From: Methylophilaceae bacterium
GTDB lineage: Bacteria; Pseudomonadota; Gammaproteobacteria; Burkholderiales; Methylophilaceae
Direction: 5' to 3'
DNA length: 55,213 nt
NCBI GenBank assembly: GCA_947451235.1
Contig: CANFZA010000005.1
Coordinates: 1-55,213, forward strand
The translations under genes and the position numbers were made by a program. A model generated the notes under the pieces. The model saw only the letters and a program-made list of their open reading frames with translations. It was not told the origin of the DNA and did no database searches. Positions 25,194-35,879 of the stretch are shown here, one piece after another. Within the stretch, counting starts at the first letter, position 1. Each line of letters starts with the position of its first letter.

Positions 25194-28100
25194 CTACAAC
25201 AACACCTTCTCAATACCACCATTATTGACACGTTCTACATATTCTTGCATCCAGTTATCGCCAAGAATATGCTTCGCCATTTCAACCACAATATAATCCG
25301 CCTCTATGCCAGTATCTTCACCATAGCGCGCTAATCCTTGCAGACAACTTGGACATGAAGTCAAAATTTTCACTTTTTCTTCAGGCGCACCAACTGTTAA
25401 TCCCATTTTACCCATGCCTTTTTCTAACTCTTCTTGCTTACGCATTTTTACTTGCGTAGCAATATCAGGCCTAGCAACGGCAAAAGTACCGCTTTCACCA
25501 CAACAACGGTCATTCAGTTGCACATCCTGCCCCATCAACTTATTCGTCACTTCCATAGGCTTATAGGTTTTCATTGGGCTGTGGCAAGGGTCGTGATACA
25601 TATATTTCGTACCAGTAATGCCTTTCAACTTCATGTCTTTTTCCATTAGATATTCGTGAATATCTAACAGACGGCAGCCTGGGAATATCTTTTCAAACTC
25701 GTATTTCTGCAGCTGATCCATACACGTGCCGCAAGACACAATGACGGTTTTAATATCCAAGTAATTAAGCGTATTTGCCACACGATGAAATAACACGCGA
25801 TTATCAGTGGTAATTTCTTGGCCTTTATCGTGATTCCCACTAGCTGTTTGCGGATAACCACAACACAAATAACCAGGCGGCAATACGGTAATCGCACCGA
25901 CTTCATACAACATAGCTTGCGTGGCTAAACCAACGTTTGAAAATAAACGCTCTGAGCCACAACCTGGGAAGTAAAACACCGCTTCTGAATCTTCAGTCAC
26001 TTTTTGCGGATTACGAATGACAGGAATCATGCTGCTATCTTCTATGCCCAACAAGGCGCGTGAAGTTTTAGTCGGCATTTTTTTCGGCATAGGGCGATTA
26101 ATAAAATGGACGATTTGCGCTTTGATTTCAGGCTTACCAACCGTCGCTGGCGGCCTGATTTTATCTTTTAACAAACCAAATTTTTTAGCCAAGGCATGCG
26201 CAAAATTTTGTGCTTTATAGCCAAAACCTATCATCACTGTACGCAATAATTTAATCGTCGCCGGATCTTTAGCATTTAAGAACGCCATACCCGCAGCCGT
26301 ACCAGGATTAAACTTCTTCTTGCCCTGCTCACGTAAAAAGTTACGCATCGCCACTGAAACTTCACCAAAATCAATGTCTACCGGGCATGGATTTAAACAT
26401 TTATGGCAAACCGTACAATGGTCAGCCACATCGTTAAACTCGTCAAAATGCTTAATGGAAATGCCTCGGCGTGTTTTTTCTTCGTACAAAAACGCTTCAA
26501 TAAGCAGCGAAGTGCCTAAAATTTTATTACGCGGGCTATACAGTAAATTAGCGCGTGGCACATGCGTGGTACACACTGGTTTACATTTACCGCAACGTAA
26601 ACAATCACTAATAGAATCGGCGATCTCGCCAATGGCAGACTGCTCCATAATGATAGATTCTTGCTCAAGTAGGCCAAAGCTTGGCGTATAAGCATTTTTG
26701 AGGCCAGAACCGGCTAGTAATTTACCTTTGTTAAAGTGCCCATTTGGGTCCACTTTGTTTTTGTATTTGGTAAAAGCTTCTATGGTCTCTTTTTCCAAAA
26801 ACTCCATTTTGGTAATACCAATACCATGTTCGCCAGAAATAACGCCATCTAAACCTTTAGCCAACGCCATGACGCGGGCAACCGCTTCATGCGCTGCACC
26901 CATCATCTGGTAATCATCAGAATTCACCGGAATATTAGTGTGTACGTTGCCGTCACCAGCATGCATGTGCAAGGCAATGAATACCCGACCTTTAAGTACC
27001 GCTTTATGAATTTCATCCGCACGGTTTAAGATTTTTTGGTATTCACGACCGGCAAAAATTTCTGCCATTGGGCGTTTAAGCTCACGCTTCCAAGAGATGC
27101 GTAAATCGTAAGATTGCACAGCGCGGAATACGTTTTCATATTGGCTCAAGCTACTTGCAACTTCACCCAAGATTGACACTGGCGCATCAAGATTATTTAA
27201 AATCAAGCTCCAACGCGCACGCAGTTCGCCAATTAATTGCAACGCCATGCCCTGCTTGCTTTTCACCATTTCAGCGTCGGCATTGCCATCTTCATCGGCT
27301 TGCAAGGGTAAATCGCCTTGCATAAATTCTTGCATGGCATCTAGCAAATTAAGCTTATTCTTAATTGAAAGTTCAATGTTAATGCGCTCGATGCCGTCAG
27401 AATAATCACCCAAACGTGGCAATGGAATCACCACATCCTCGTTGATTTTAAAGGCGTTCGTATGTTTTGCAATGGCAGCCGTACGGGCGCGATCTAACCA
27501 GAATTTTTTACGCGCTTCAGCAGAAACGGCAATAAAACCTTCGCCATTACGTGCATTACATAGGCGCACAATATGTGAGGCGGCCTCGCCTACGGCGTTT
27601 TCATCATCAGAAGCAATATCTGCAATCAATACCATTTTTGGGCGTTGCTGGCGTGCCGCTTTAGTGGCGTAACCAACCGCTTTAATGTAACGCTCGTCCA
27701 TGTGCTCTAGACCAGCCATCAGCACTAGCGGATCTTTTTTAGCAGTAGCATCAAGATAATCTTTAATCTCAACAATCGCTGGCACCGCATGCGATACATT
27801 GCCAAAGAACTCCAAAGCAACAGTACGCACATGCTTAGGCATGCGATGCAAAATGAAAGTGGCGCTAGTAATTAAACCATCGCAACCTTCTTTTTGTATG
27901 CCGGGTAAACCTGATAAAAATTTATCAGTCACGTCTTTACCTAAACCCACTTTACGGAAACTAGGGCCGGCGATTTCTAAAATCTCAGGTTCAGCCAACA
28001 AAGTTTTCATGTCTTCCGCATAGCGGCTAACTTTAAACCGCGCCATTGCGATATCGTGTATTTTGCCTAAATTATGATCCAAACGCTCGACTTCTAGCCA

Positions 28101-29063
28101 TTCAGCGTCTGGCGTCACCATGCGCCATGAGGCTAGGTTATCTAAAGCGGTACCCCAAAGCACTGCTTTTTTGCCGCCGGCATTCATAGAAACATTACCG
28201 CCAATACAGCTCGCATCGGCACTGGTTGGATCGCAAGCGAATTCTAATCCGGCATCGCTAGCGGCTTCCATTGCACGACGGGTAACCACACCAGCGCCAC
28301 ATTCAATAGTGGCTACTTGGCGCGAAACACCCGGCAAAGTGCGCATCTGCACGCCAGTATGTTGATCTAATTTCTCAGTGTTAATTACCGCTGACATTGG
28401 CGTTAGCGGAATTGCACCACCGGTATAACCAGTACCGCCGCCCCTAGGAATGACAGTAAGCCCTAACTCAATACAGGCGCGTACTAAAGCTGCGATTTCT
28501 TTTTCTGTATCAGGCGTTAGCACGACAAACGGATATTCAACACGCCAGTCAGTCGCATCTGTGACGTGAGAAACACGTGCTAAACCATCAAACTGCACGT
28601 TATCTTTACGGGTAATTTTGGTTAATTTGGCTAAAGCTTTTTTGCGTAGATTAGCGGTTTTCTTAAAATCTTCTTCAAACTGCAATACCGCTTGACGACC
28701 AGCTACCACCAATTTCAAAACTTTGGCATTAGCCGCGCTACGTTCTTCAATGGCAGCAATACGGTGCTGTAGAGCATCGACCAAGGCCTTGCGGCGTTTA
28801 GGATTTTCAAGCAAGTCATCTTGCAAGTATGGGTTACGCGTCACGACCCACAAATCACCCAGCACTTCAAACAGCATGCGCGCAGAGCGACCTGTTTTAC
28901 GTTCGCCACGTAATTCATTTAATACATCCCAAATCTCTTCACCAAGAAACCTAATGACGATTTCGCGGTCAGAGAATGACGTGTAGTTATAAGGGATTTC
29001 GCGCAAGCGCGAAGCTGGCTGAGGCTCAGCATTTAGAATATTGCTAGGTAGGGGTGCGTTCAT
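25194..29063 (-). CDS. FAD-linked oxidase / 4Fe-4S / CCG-domain dehydrogenase (D-lactate/glycolate dehydrogenase-like)
   Basis: 1289 aa; FAD-binding [35 protein letters not shown] and [14 protein letters not shown] 4Fe-4S motifs, C-terminal CCG domains. Confidence 0.88.
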
Positions 29064-29271: not shown

Positions 29272-29787
29272 ATGAATAATTTATTAAAAAAATCCTTATT
29301 GCCAGCCATCATTATTGTTTTGCTCGCTTTTTTAGGATTTAAATTAAGCAATAAATCTGCCGCGCCTGATGTGACATTTACCACTATAGAAGGCCGAAAA
29401 ATAGCGATGGCCGATTTAAAAGGCAAAGTCGTTTTAGTCAACTTTTGGGCAACCGATTGCCCGGGATGTGTAAAAGAAATGCCTGACTTAGTAAACGCTT
29501 ACAATCAACATCATAAAAATGGCTTTGAAGTGATTGCTGTGGCCATGCCTTATGATCCACCTGCGCAAGTGCTTAATTATACAAAACAAAAAGCATTGCC
29601 GTTTCCTGTCATGCATGATGGATTATCAGAAGTCACCGAAAAATTTGGCGGCATTAACCTTACCCCGACCACTTATATTTTTGATAAAAACGGCCATTTA
29701 TTACGCCGCACTATCGGTAATATAGATTTCAATGATTTAAATTTAATACTCAATAAAGAATTAAATAACAAAAAGGTAGATTTATAA
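29272..29787 (+). CDS. TlpA/ResA-like thioredoxin-family protein
   Basis: 171 aa; N-terminal TM, VVLVNFWATDCPGCVKEMPDL. Confidence 0.9.
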   Translation: MNNLLKKSLLPAIIIVLLAFLGFKLSNKSAAPDVTFTTIEGRKIAMADLKGKVVLVNFWATDCPGCVKEMPDLVNAYNQHHKNGFEVIAVAMPYDPPAQVLNYTKQKALPFPVMHDGLSEVTEKFGGINLTPTTYIFDKNGHLLRRTIGNIDFNDLNLILNKELNNKKVDL

Positions 29788-29788
29788 A

Positions 29789-30199
29789 ATGTTGTGGATA
29801 AAAGCGTTTCATATTATTTTTGTAACCAGTTGGTTTGCCGGCCTGTTTTATTTGCCAAGACTGTTTGTTAATCATGCAATGGTGTCCGATAGCGCAACTT
29901 CAGATCGCCTAAAACTAATGGAGCTGAAGTTATTCAGATTTATGCTTCCACTGGCATTTTTAGCCATAGGCTTTGGTTTTTGGCTGTGGTTGGGTTATGG
30001 CGTTGCTGGCCACTGGATGCACGCAAAATTAACGCTGGTTGCCATTTTGGTCGCGTATCACTTTTATTGCGGAAAACTGCTGAATGATTTCAAACAGGAT
30101 AAAAACAAACACAGCCACGTGTGGTACCGCTGGTTTAATGAACTGCCAGTCATCGTGCTTTGCTTGATAGTCATACTGGTTGAAGTACAACCGTTTTAA
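29789..30199 (+). CDS. CopD/HemJ-like membrane protein (protoporphyrinogen oxidase HemJ family)
   Basis: 136 aa; LWIKAFHIIFVTSWFAGLFYLPRLFVNHA, W..RWFNELPV. Confidence 0.85.
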   Translation: MLWIKAFHIIFVTSWFAGLFYLPRLFVNHAMVSDSATSDRLKLMELKLFRFMLPLAFLAIGFGFWLWLGYGVAGHWMHAKLTLVAILVAYHFYCGKLLNDFKQDKNKHSHVWYRWFNELPVIVLCLIVILVEVQPF

Positions 30200-30228: not shown

Positions 30229-31002
30229 ATGGATATTTTCAATTCTCAATGGCTGCTTAATATGCTGACCAAATCTAGCAAAACGCCTGAAGGACGGATA
30301 CTAAGTTTATTTGACATTTTAGGCGACTGGCTAGAAGCGCCAAATGTGCTGCTAGATATTAACAAAGACATCAACCCTAGCCAGCAACTGGTCACTTTTT
30401 TCACCGCACAAGCCAAAGCCTGCGGGGCTGAAAATCCATCAATGTTAGCTGAGCACGTTGTACTGATCGCCAAAAATGCTACGCAACAAGAAATTAATCA
30501 GCCCGGCTGCAATAGCTTGATACATGCAAAAAAAGCAGCCCATGCGCTGATATTGGCGCAAACACAAAAAGAATGGTTCTTTTCTGGCATTACAATATCT
30601 AAACGCGTTAGTTACTCAATCGCCGCCAGCATTTTTGTAGTCACAATTGCCGCTGCAATATTGCTGCCGAACCTGCTTAAAAATAGCCGATTACAAACAA
30701 CTATCGCCGGCAAAAATATCGTGAAAGATAAAGCAACATTAGCGCTTGCGCCACAACAAGCAAATACAAGCATTACAGCGCGTGACGCAGCCGCCATGTA
30801 TGCAAAATTCGAACAAATGCGCAATGGCACATGTCAGTTTCCTGAAGTTATTCAAATCCCGGATAAAGACAAAGCGGTTTACCTAGTCAATGTTGTGGGC
30901 GGAAAGCTACCAACTGATCTGCATGATTTAGCCATTGCGAATAGCTATTTAGAAAAAGTACGTTGCAACTTCACGCCCATGCTCATGGCGCATTCAAAAT
31001 AA
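30229..31002 (+). CDS. Membrane-anchored protein with a TetR C-terminal-like cytosolic domain and no HTH
   Basis: 257 aa; TPEGRILSLFDILGDWLEAPN...FFTAQAKACGAENPSMLAEHVVLIAKNATQQEINQPGCNSLIHAKKAAHALIL, one TM (VSYSIAASIFVVTIAAAILLPNLL), extracytoplasmic tail. Confidence 0.6.
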   Translation: MDIFNSQWLLNMLTKSSKTPEGRILSLFDILGDWLEAPNVLLDINKDINPSQQLVTFFTAQAKACGAENPSMLAEHVVLIAKNATQQEINQPGCNSLIHAKKAAHALILAQTQKEWFFSGITISKRVSYSIAASIFVVTIAAAILLPNLLKNSRLQTTIAGKNIVKDKATLALAPQQANTSITARDAAAMYAKFEQMRNGTCQFPEVIQIPDKDKAVYLVNVVGGKLPTDLHDLAIANSYLEKVRCNFTPMLMAHSK

Positions 31003-31157: not shown

Positions 31158-31661
31158 TTACTCTGATATTTTTTTCAAGTTACTTAAACCGCCATCATAA
31201 ACACCGCCAATAGTATCTGACGCTGTTTTTTCATCAGCAGGTGCTTTTGGCAAAAAGCTACCTTCCCAAACAACTACAGATTTATCTGCACCGTTGCTGT
31301 ACACATGCAATGTTGAAGCGTAAGCCGTTACTGGTAAAACACTATCAGTAATGATGTAACTCATCGTTTTATTGTTTGCATTATAAGCCGTTAACTGTTC
31401 ATTAATCTTGCCGCCATCTTGTAGCGTCAATGAGCGTTTAGCGCCTTTTTTACCATCTTTACCAGCAGTAATTTCAGTTTTAGCAACGGCTGGGTGCCAG
31501 GCACCCAAGTCTGAAAATTTAGAAATCTTATCCCATACTTTTGCCGCAGGTGCGTTTATGTTCACTGATTTAATGACATAAAGTGAGGCTGACTCGGCGG
31601 CATTTGCTTCAGCAGCAAAACCAAAAGCTAATAAAGACAATGCAACTAACAATTTACTCAT
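31158..31661 (-). CDS. SRPBCC (polyketide cyclase/dehydrase-like) periplasmic protein
   Basis: 167 aa; signal peptide, VKSVNINAPAAKVWDKISKFSDLGAWHPAV. Confidence 0.85.
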   Translation of the reverse strand: MSKLLVALSLLAFGFAAEANAAESASLYVIKSVNINAPAAKVWDKISKFSDLGAWHPAVAKTEITAGKDGKKGAKRSLTLQDGGKINEQLTAYNANNKTMSYIITDSVLPVTAYASTLHVYSNGADKSVVVWEGSFLPKAPADEKTASDTIGGVYDGGLSNLKKISE

Positions 31662-31792: not shown

Positions 31793-31816
31793 TATATATA
31801 CAGGTCTGTATATATA
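31793..31816. promoter_or_regulatory. Candidate TetR-family operator
   Basis: 11-bp inverted arms TATATATACAG-GT-CTGTATATATA between divergent SRPBCC and tetR genes. Confidence 0.65.
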
Positions 31817-31857: not shown

Positions 31858-32436
31858 TTGGTAAGAATTGTTATGTCCACGTTAAAAAGTAAAATATTGG
31901 TGGTAGCAACAGACTTGTTCCAAACAAGAGGCATCAACTCGACTGGCGTTGACACGATTGTTGCGGTAGCAGGCACCACTAAAATGACGCTTTATAAGTA
32001 TTTCACTAGCAAAGAAAATTTAATTCTTGAAGTTCTCAAAAAAGGTCATGAAGACTTTCAAAGCTGGCTAAGCGAAAAATTAAATACCAACGCAAAAAAA
32101 CCTAGCGAAAAATTACTTAAACTATTTGAGTTTATTGAAGAGTGGGTAACGTCCCCCAACTTTCGCGGCATGGGCTTTATCAAAGCTTCAGCAGAATTCC
32201 CTAATGAAGAAAGTCCTGTTCATCAACTCTCTTCAGAACAATCTCGGGAATTTAAGCAATATATTTGTAGCCTAGCTACTGAAGCAAACATTAAAGATGC
32301 TGAAGGCTTAGCTTTGCAACTTTCATTATTATTTGAAGGTGCCGTGCAAGCAGAGCAAATGAAGCGTGGCTCTGGCGCCATGAAGTATGCAAAAAAAGCC
32401 TCAAAAATATTAATTGATGGCGCACTGGCAGATTAA
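31858..32436 (+). CDS. TetR/AcrR family transcriptional regulator
   Basis: 192 aa; KILVVATDLFQTRGINSTGVDTIVAVAGTTKMTLYKYFTSKENLILEVL. Confidence 0.93.
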   Translation: MVRIVMSTLKSKILVVATDLFQTRGINSTGVDTIVAVAGTTKMTLYKYFTSKENLILEVLKKGHEDFQSWLSEKLNTNAKKPSEKLLKLFEFIEEWVTSPNFRGMGFIKASAEFPNEESPVHQLSSEQSREFKQYICSLATEANIKDAEGLALQLSLLFEGAVQAEQMKRGSGAMKYAKKASKILIDGALAD

Positions 32437-34216: not shown

Positions 34217-35005
34217 ATGGTTGGTAAAGATTTCACTGTACTTGAAAATACAAATGAACAGAGCCGTAAGCAAATTGAGTTGCAACAATCTCTGCAAAGA
34301 AGACTTTGCATTAGCCTTGCACGCACTCAGGCAGAAATTGAAGAAGCACAACGCTTGCGTTACAAAGTGTTCGCAGAAGAAATGGGCGCACAAGTATCTG
34401 GTACTGATGGCCTAGATGTTGACGGTTTTGATCAATTTTGTGACCATTTGATTGTACGTGATAGTGAAACTAACCAAGTAATCGGTACTTACCGTATTCT
34501 AAGCCCAGAAAAAGCCAATGAAGCTGGTGGTTATTATTCTGCTGGCGAATTTGATTTAAGCCGCTTAGCACATTTATTTGATCGCACCGTAGAGGTTGGT
34601 CGTGCCTGTGTACACCAAAACTATCGCAACGGCGGCACTATCACTATGCTATGGGCTGGCCTTGCTAAATACATGAAACTTAACAATTACGAGTACATGA
34701 TAGGCTGCGGTAGCCTGAGTATGTCTGACGGTGGACACGCTGCAGCTAGCTTGTATCAAAAACTACAAGACGATTACTTATCACCGATTGAATATCGCGT
34801 ATTTGCGCGTAATCCATTGCCAATCAAATCATTACGCACTGACATGCAAGTGGCTTGCCCACCATTAATTAAAGGCTATTTACGCCTTGGTGCTTATATT
34901 TGTGGTGAACCAGCATGGGATCCCTATTTCAACACAGCCGATATGCTGGTAATGTTACCTTTATCTAGAATCAACCCAAGATATGCTGCACACTTTTTAA
35001 AATAA
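34217..35005 (+). CDS. olsB: GNAT-type N-acyltransferase, ornithine acyl-ACP acyltransferase OlsB-like
   Basis: 262 aa; RLRYKVFAEEMGAQ...FDQFCDHLIVRD...TYRILSPEKA...VEVGRACVHQNYRNG; followed by an OlsA-like acyltransferase. Confidence 0.82.
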   Translation: MVGKDFTVLENTNEQSRKQIELQQSLQRRLCISLARTQAEIEEAQRLRYKVFAEEMGAQVSGTDGLDVDGFDQFCDHLIVRDSETNQVIGTYRILSPEKANEAGGYYSAGEFDLSRLAHLFDRTVEVGRACVHQNYRNGGTITMLWAGLAKYMKLNNYEYMIGCGSLSMSDGGHAAASLYQKLQDDYLSPIEYRVFARNPLPIKSLRTDMQVACPPLIKGYLRLGAYICGEPAWDPYFNTADMLVMLPLSRINPRYAAHFLK

Positions 35006-35033
35006 GAGGCTTGCGACTCATCGCTCAATTACT

Positions 35034-35879
35034 TTGCAATCATTAAATATAAACGACATTAATACTGACTTAATTCTTACCGGTAAAATTACACGTTATT
35101 TTAGAATTGGTCGGGTAGCATCACACACACTAGCAGGGGTAATTATTGCATCCACAATATTACCTCTGGCTAGCAAACCACTAAAAAGATGCATCATCAA
35201 ATGGTGGAGTACGCGCTTATTAGCGGCATTCAATATTCGAGTTATTTCTCATGGCCATATTCCACAAGCAAAAGACCGATTAAAAACCACAATGTTTGTG
35301 GCTAATCATATCTCTTGGACCGACGTGCATGCGCTTAATAGCTTAATCGCGTTAAGATTTGTAGCAAAGTCTGAAATAAGAAGTTGGCCAGTGATTGGCT
35401 TTTTAACGTATAAAGCCAACGCCCTTTTTATAGATCGCGCCAAGCGTCAAGATGCTGGACGCATTGTGAATACGGCTGCGCATAGCTTGAAATCTGGTGA
35501 TAATTTATGCTTTTTCCCAGAAGGCACCACCACAGATGGCACCGAAATAAAGCGTTTTAAGAGTAGCCTAATTCAAGCTGCCATAGAAACAAATGCCACG
35601 ATTAGACCGGTTGCAATTCGCTACCCAATGCCTAATGGTAGCGCCAACATTAGGCTTGCATATGCCGGAGAAACAACCATGCTGGAATCAATGCGGCAAA
35701 TATTGTCGCAAAAAAATCCAGTGGTTGAACTGTTCTTTTTAGCACCGATTATTGTTGAAGAACTAGCAGAACAAGATAAAGATCGTAGATCTCTTACACA
35801 TAGCGTTGAATATTTGATTCGGCACACATTGGACCTACATTTTCAGCCTATTATAGACAGCACCGTTAAAGCCAATTAA
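35034..35879 (+). CDS. Lysophospholipid acyltransferase, OlsA/PlsC-like
   Basis: 281 aa; NHISWTDV (HX4D) and FFPEGTTTDG motifs; TTG start. Confidence 0.88.
   Translation: MQSLNINDINTDLILTGKITRYFRIGRVASHTLAGVIIASTILPLASKPLKRCIIKWWSTRLLAAFNIRVISHGHIPQAKDRLKTTMFVANHISWTDVHALNSLIALRFVAKSEIRSWPVIGFLTYKANALFIDRAKRQDAGRIVNTAAHSLKSGDNLCFFPEGTTTDGTEIKRFKSSLIQAAIETNATIRPVAIRYPMPNGSANIRLAYAGETTMLESMRQILSQKNPVVELFFLAPIIVEELAEQDKDRRSLTHSVEYLIRHTLDLHFQPIIDSTVKAN

Follow-up and report, generated by a model that had tools for sequence, protein, structure and literature searches.

Introduction

Repressors of the TetR family, which are very common in bacteria, are regarded as soluble one-component switches responding to cytoplasmic ligands only. 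The DNA analysed here, a stretch of 55,213 nucleotides from a Methylophilaceae bacterium (the window), encodes, upstream of a complete TetR gene, a protein that resembles the regulatory half of such a repressor, lacks the DNA-binding half and is predicted to be anchored in the membrane. This raises the question of what a membrane-bound relative of TetR might do beside a full-length TetR, and whether the arrangement extends to other loci and genomes. The window protein and its homologues are referred to below as members.

Results

A TetR C-domain without the HTH

The reading frame at 30229..31002 is unbroken on the + strand and encodes 257 amino acids, comprising an HTH-less TetR_C-like domain, a transmembrane helix and a two-cysteine periplasmic domain. 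The TetR regulatory/dimerisation-like domain, predicted to be cytoplasmic, covers residues 1-114 (30229..30570, +) according to AlphaFold, Foldseek and hhalign. TetR_N HTH matches were absent from the window protein, and an HTH cannot be hidden on its 5' side, because hemJ stops at 30199, 30 bp away, and the MDIFNS start is conserved among members. Since the HTH is absent, sequence-specific DNA binding by a member homodimer is unexpected; the window protein, having the TetR C-domain and lacking the TetR_N HTH, does not count as a true TetR regulator. Neither the protein nor its halves gave a match above cut-off in Pfam, NCBIfam or PHROGs, which is in line with the original prediction, where no described family with this layout was recognised, and sub-threshold matches to TetR_C_31 or TetR_C_6 appeared in three members other than the window protein.

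The original prediction had aligned the N-terminal ~110 residues with the C-terminal half of TetR regulators, including the adjoining one, and this alignment was borne out. In BLASTP the first ~110 residues match residues 70-186 of the adjoining TetR (28 identities in 117 positions, E 1e-8), and the match recurs at the same place, in both search directions, in several dozen pairs of orthologues from the genus. Comparison of the N-domain with a TetR alignment by hhalign gave E 1.3e-9 with genus sequences and E 2.8e-17 with family-wide sequences, and a search of all PDB sequences with the family profile returned a TetR protein as the sole significant match (3jsj, residues 77-164, E 1.1e-4). In other families of the order and class the family profiles gave weak hits at 26 loci, and at 25 of these an ORF fits the TetR model. 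A fold comparison of residues 1-115 had been proposed as the check, with a non-TetR fold as the adverse outcome; the AlphaFold model of residues 1-114 (pLDDT 89.8, pTM 0.84) has five helices (7-16, 20-36, 52-65, 70-90 and 96-112), and its best 50 Foldseek matches in the PDB are all TetR-family or TetR-like by description, with a best TM-score of 0.71 on the query and every E-value above 0.001. These matches include SlmA and 'NO factor' entries, which are TetR-like, and 3on2, deposited as 'unknown function'.

Because pairwise, profile, PDB and fold evidence agree, the TetR C-domain identity is secure for the members of the window's type (A) and for C-type members, two of four distinguishable types (A, B, C and D). 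The N-domains of B-type members alone match TetR weakly (E 6e-6, probability 85), and B- and D-type members are tied to TetR mainly through the A-type. The domain had been called 'ligand-binding-like', a description that holds as regards its homology to the TetR_C regulatory/dimerisation region and fits less well in that the part corresponding to the TetR ligand-binding region lacks ~16 residues at its centre. Best kept is the last helix, which is 47% identical to that of the cognate TetR; in nine-helix TetRs the dimer interface is formed by the final helix and the helix before it. Cognate member/TetR pairs were no more similar at aligned positions than non-cognate pairs, so we make no claim of residue-level coevolution.

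Membrane helix and periplasmic two-cysteine domain

A lone hydrophobic stretch (residues about 126-150; 30604..30678, +) follows soon after the last TetR-like helix, and the full-length AlphaFold model also places a helix at 126-150. Hydropathy, K/R bias and cysteine number were determined for 93 members of all four types. In 61 A-type members the mean number of K/R per 15 residues is 2.8 before the helix and 1.0 after it, and members are thus predicted to be oriented N-in by the positive-inside rule. Hence the layout expected from the original prediction, no HTH and then one transmembrane helix with an extracytoplasmic tail, was recovered.

The predicted periplasmic domain comprises residues 151-257 (30679..30999, +) in the alignments, and conservation within the member is highest over the last ~75 residues, which hold GTCQFPEA...YLEKVRCNFTPMLMA in the A-type. 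Exactly two cysteines follow the transmembrane helix in 92/93 members, across all four types; in the window protein these are Cys202 (codon 30832..30834, +) and Cys246 (codon 30964..30966, +), both in invariant alignment columns. From this conservation we infer that the pair may form a periplasmic disulfide or a redox pair. The full-length AlphaFold model has low confidence in the periplasmic half, and we therefore claim no fold for this part. Protein A constructs, the sole PDB profile matches of this domain, were rejected as a repeat artefact, since no stretch passes alone.

Distribution in Methylophilaceae

A survey for the TetR_C-transmembrane layout, as had been suggested, found members in 128/187 Methylophilaceae genomes (129 if G184 is counted, whose match is a 40-aa remnant) and in 21/24 genera, often with two to three copies per genome. 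Samples of 300 and 399 genomes of the order and 369 of the class outside Methylophilaceae contained no full-length members, only TetRs, and no member was present in 72,556 plasmid records; the family is apparently restricted to Methylophilaceae. The Methylotenera-like genome of the window also carries a B-type member, cut by the contig end (L092:4036-4736, contig C120).

Type-for-type pairing with TetR genes

The cognate TetR of the window member, TetR-A, lies at 31873..32436 (+) and has an HTH (TetR_N, E 4e-13). It had been placed 900 bp from the member as an ORF at 31858-32436; the adjoining position and the end at 32436 stand, while the gap between the listed ORFs is 855 bp and the start is probably the ATG at 31873, where orthologues begin, and not the TTG at 31858. 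Among 108 distinct members, 100 have a TetR gene within 1.3 kb downstream, 98 on the same strand and two convergent. Since the genomes checked (ten) carry just 4-12 TetRs each, chance would not be expected to produce this adjacency. For the remaining eight members, one TetR lies 4.2 kb downstream, five members run into the end of a contig or locus and two stand apart from their TetR, so that at most three are real exceptions. The two separated Methylophilaceae members are found in G021 and G201 C1, and each of these genomes encodes such a TetR on another contig. In G021 the usual place of the TetR, immediately 3' of the A-type member, is taken by a gene for a Crp-family regulator (L164:5089-5823), and the TetR sits with pfkB on another contig. 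In G201 the member has no TetR beside it (L197:3896-4714), and a related TetR stands unpaired on a different contig (L222:3816-4379).

Member types match TetR types one to one in 93 pairs (61/27/3/2), with no cross-pairing. The pairwise distances of members and TetRs are correlated (0.89, 93 pairs), and the matching of types is the stronger point, because shared ancestry feeds the correlation. Mean identity within the A and B types is 0.41-0.44 for the member vs 0.74-0.76 for the TetR; the member diverges faster, so that the sequences give no evidence of a tight interface in which each residue is conserved. Moreover, in nearly all genomes listed, members and A/B-like TetRs are either both present or both absent. 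In G184 (L193) the 40-aa A-type remnant lies between intact hemJ and pfkB, the tetR gene is gone and the order tlpA-hemJ-pfkB is kept, a deletion in which member and TetR were lost jointly.

Gene neighbourhood and operator-like palindromes

In the window the A-type gene follows a TlpA/ResA-like thioredoxin gene, its conserved upstream neighbour (29272..29787, +), and a HemJ/UPF0093 gene (29789..30199, +), and a pfkB kinase gene lies past the TetR. The order tlpA, hemJ, member, tetR, pfkB is kept in more than 50 of the 61 A loci. Adjoining the A module in 59/61 loci is a gene for a 1289-aa fusion of FAD-linked oxidase, Fe-S and CCG domains with DUF3683/DUF3400 (25194-29063, -, in the window). 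Farther on, at 34217-35879, a GNAT gene (Acetyltransf_5, weak autoinducer synthase similarity) is followed by a PlsC-type acyltransferase gene, a layout like that of the ornithine-lipid OlsB/OlsA genes.

Between member and tetR, and divergent from the latter, the window encodes a START/Polyketide_cyc2-like protein (31158..31661, -), which is present in 20/61 A loci and is a likely target of TetR-A. The interval between this gene and tetR holds a perfect 24-bp palindrome, TATATATACAGGTCTGTATATATA (31793..31816), a putative TetR-A operator. Its core, ATACAGNNCTGTAT, has no other exact copy in the genome; this core recurs in 12 of the 23 A loci where a gene separates member and tetR (shuffles 0), and an operator-like site is found in 2 of the 38 A loci without such a gene. 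Upstream of the A-type gene itself no palindrome was consistent, and a sigma-70 promoter scan gave no excess.

At 24/27 B loci GACAG(R)(Y)CTGT precedes the member (shuffles 0), and the operator-like palindromes of A and B loci have an ACAG..CTGT core. The B-type member and its tetR stand in one apparent operon behind this site. B-type modules are divergent from a cluster resembling the mxaRS methanol-dehydrogenase accessory genes, with a GACAGGTCTGT palindrome in between. The divergent genes upstream include a MoxR ATPase gene in 22/27 loci, a DUF58 gene also in 21/27 and a vWA gene in 16/27, and a conserved CAGACAGGTCTGTTCA site is found at B-type loci (L046-L055, L063 and others) that are divergent from the MoxR-DUF58-vWA genes. 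In their domains and order these genes appear to resemble the mxaRSACKL accessory genes, which occur in multiple copies in Methylophilaceae (PMC4109929). D-type modules adjoin PQQ alcohol/methanol dehydrogenase (XoxF-like) genes (L167:1942-3819 and L169:2268-4163); here a palindrome lies 5' of the member, and the TetR gene is convergent, touching or overlapping the end of the member gene. The original prediction had mentioned neither the paralogous modules nor the two conserved cysteines of the periplasmic domain, and the operator-like sites and the connection with methanol oxidation genes are likewise additions to it.

Discussion

A proposed membrane-bound partner for TetR

The homology, the transmembrane topology, the cysteine pair, the type-for-type pairing and the operator-like palindromes described above lead us to lean, with slightly more confidence than doubt, towards a reading of the member as a membrane anti-TetR, which would form a heterodimer with the neighbouring TetR and through which a periplasmic cue would set the amount of free TetR dimer on the operators. 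The formation of heterodimers, the sequestration of TetR and the kind of signal are the parts that we infer. The member may have originated from a TetR through loss of the DNA-binding domain and acquisition of both the transmembrane helix and the periplasmic two-cysteine domain. Its retained last helices would pair in the cytoplasm with their counterparts in the neighbouring TetR, giving a DNA-binding-defective heterodimer held at the membrane; titration of the adjoining TetR, one of the roles offered in the original prediction, is plausible, and it is strengthened by the type-for-type pairing in four paralogous lineages and by the joint loss in G184. A periplasmic cue, possibly a small molecule, a metal or the thiol/disulfide state of the cysteine pair, would alter the pairing and, by tethering or release, determine how much free TetR dimer is available to the palindromic operators.

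The resemblance to TetR_C could in principle be a convergent similarity of short helices with an incidental neighbourhood, as the Foldseek E-values and the empty Pfam and NCBIfam scans would allow; this reading is largely refuted and we regard it as very improbable, given profile E-values down to 1e-17, TetR as the sole significant match among all PDB sequences, a family profile that retrieves full-length TetRs from other families and a TetR that remains adjoining across genera. More weight is due to the idea that the member is a membrane-bound homodimeric sensor, in which the TetR_C-like domain would bind a small molecule or serve as a dimeric scaffold, and which would make no contact with TetR and be linked to it only as its regulatory target. 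The TetR_C fold serves ligand binding, and the shared apparent operon of B-type member and tetR behind an operator-like site would suit such a target. However, the shortened part of the domain is precisely the ligand region, autoregulation alone leaves the partner's own derivation from TetR unexplained, and the type-matched pairing persists where the TetR gene is inverted (D type); in A loci, moreover, the member lies 5' of the operator-like site and may escape its regulation. We consider this reading unlikely.

Somewhat less probable again appears a role of the member as a co-factor which would help TetR, by recruiting it to the membrane for a lipid-like or periplasmic ligand or by stabilising it, and would not antagonise it. 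Such a role would be in line with the full ligand domain that TetR retains, and a START/Polyketide_cyc2-like target in A loci would suit a lipid-like ligand; sequence evidence does not tell help from antagonism, but a protein that has lost its HTH is more likely to act as a dominant negative.

Comparison with known systems

The closest relatives in sequence are TetR/AcrR regulators with a TetR_C_13 / LmrA-YxaF-like C-domain (3jsj SAV143; E. coli YjdC/DicD), with which the member shares the fold and sequence of the C-domain, the last helix being best conserved; in contrast to these regulators it has no HTH, its ligand region is shortened, and a membrane helix and a periplasmic domain have been added. 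RseA/RskA-type anti-sigma factors have a cytoplasmic regulator-binding domain, one transmembrane helix and a periplasmic sensing domain and are encoded beside their regulator. The member has the same arrangement, with the topology being predicted: cytoplasmic N-domain, single transmembrane helix, periplasmic C-domain and an adjoining regulator gene. The likeness is one of layout, with no sequence relation claimed, since anti-sigma factors bind a sigma factor and are not derived from the regulator's own family. In SinI/SinR of Bacillus subtilis a paralogous dimerisation domain disrupts the repressor, and in Mlc/EIICB-Glc of E. coli the repressor is drawn to the membrane; neither system unites both features, and neither involves TetR proteins.

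Among LuxR-family regulators, the HTH-less paralogues TrlR and CerN block TraR and antagonise CerM, respectively, TrlR acting through inactive heterodimers; identity to the partner is 88% for TrlR and 31% for CerN (PMC11655674). Like them, the member is a paralogue without a DNA-binding domain that occurs alongside a full-length regulator, the control of which is proposed here by analogy. They differ in belonging to another regulator family, and PMC11655674 describes neither a membrane anchor nor a periplasmic domain in TrlR or CerN. In this sense a membrane anti-TetR is, by analogy, a variant on HTH-less antagonistic paralogues and on membrane anti-regulators. No described membrane-bound TetR-derived partner was found in a literature search that had subscription journals and preprints largely outside its scope.

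Significance for Methylophilaceae

The near-constant pairing of a TetR with a membrane-fixed, HTH-less relative suggests an undescribed route by which an outside signal could reach an internal repressor. Taken further, this would amount to a TetR-based transmembrane two-protein system, a repressor with an anchored HTH-less paralogue that reads the periplasm through its cysteine pair, duplicated in Methylophilaceae and controlling methanol dehydrogenase accessory clusters among others; we put forward this wider proposal tentatively and with more doubt than confidence. If true, a family-wide duplicated module would give TetRs transmembrane input by the loss of an HTH rather than by the gain of a kinase, and would offer synthetic biology a naturally occurring model for TetR switches gated at the membrane. 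In Methylophilaceae the member-TetR module is a candidate regulator located next to mxaRS-like accessory clusters and to a PQQ alcohol dehydrogenase gene, and it could, if the proposal is true, have a part in how this family regulates methanol oxidation, which is poorly understood.
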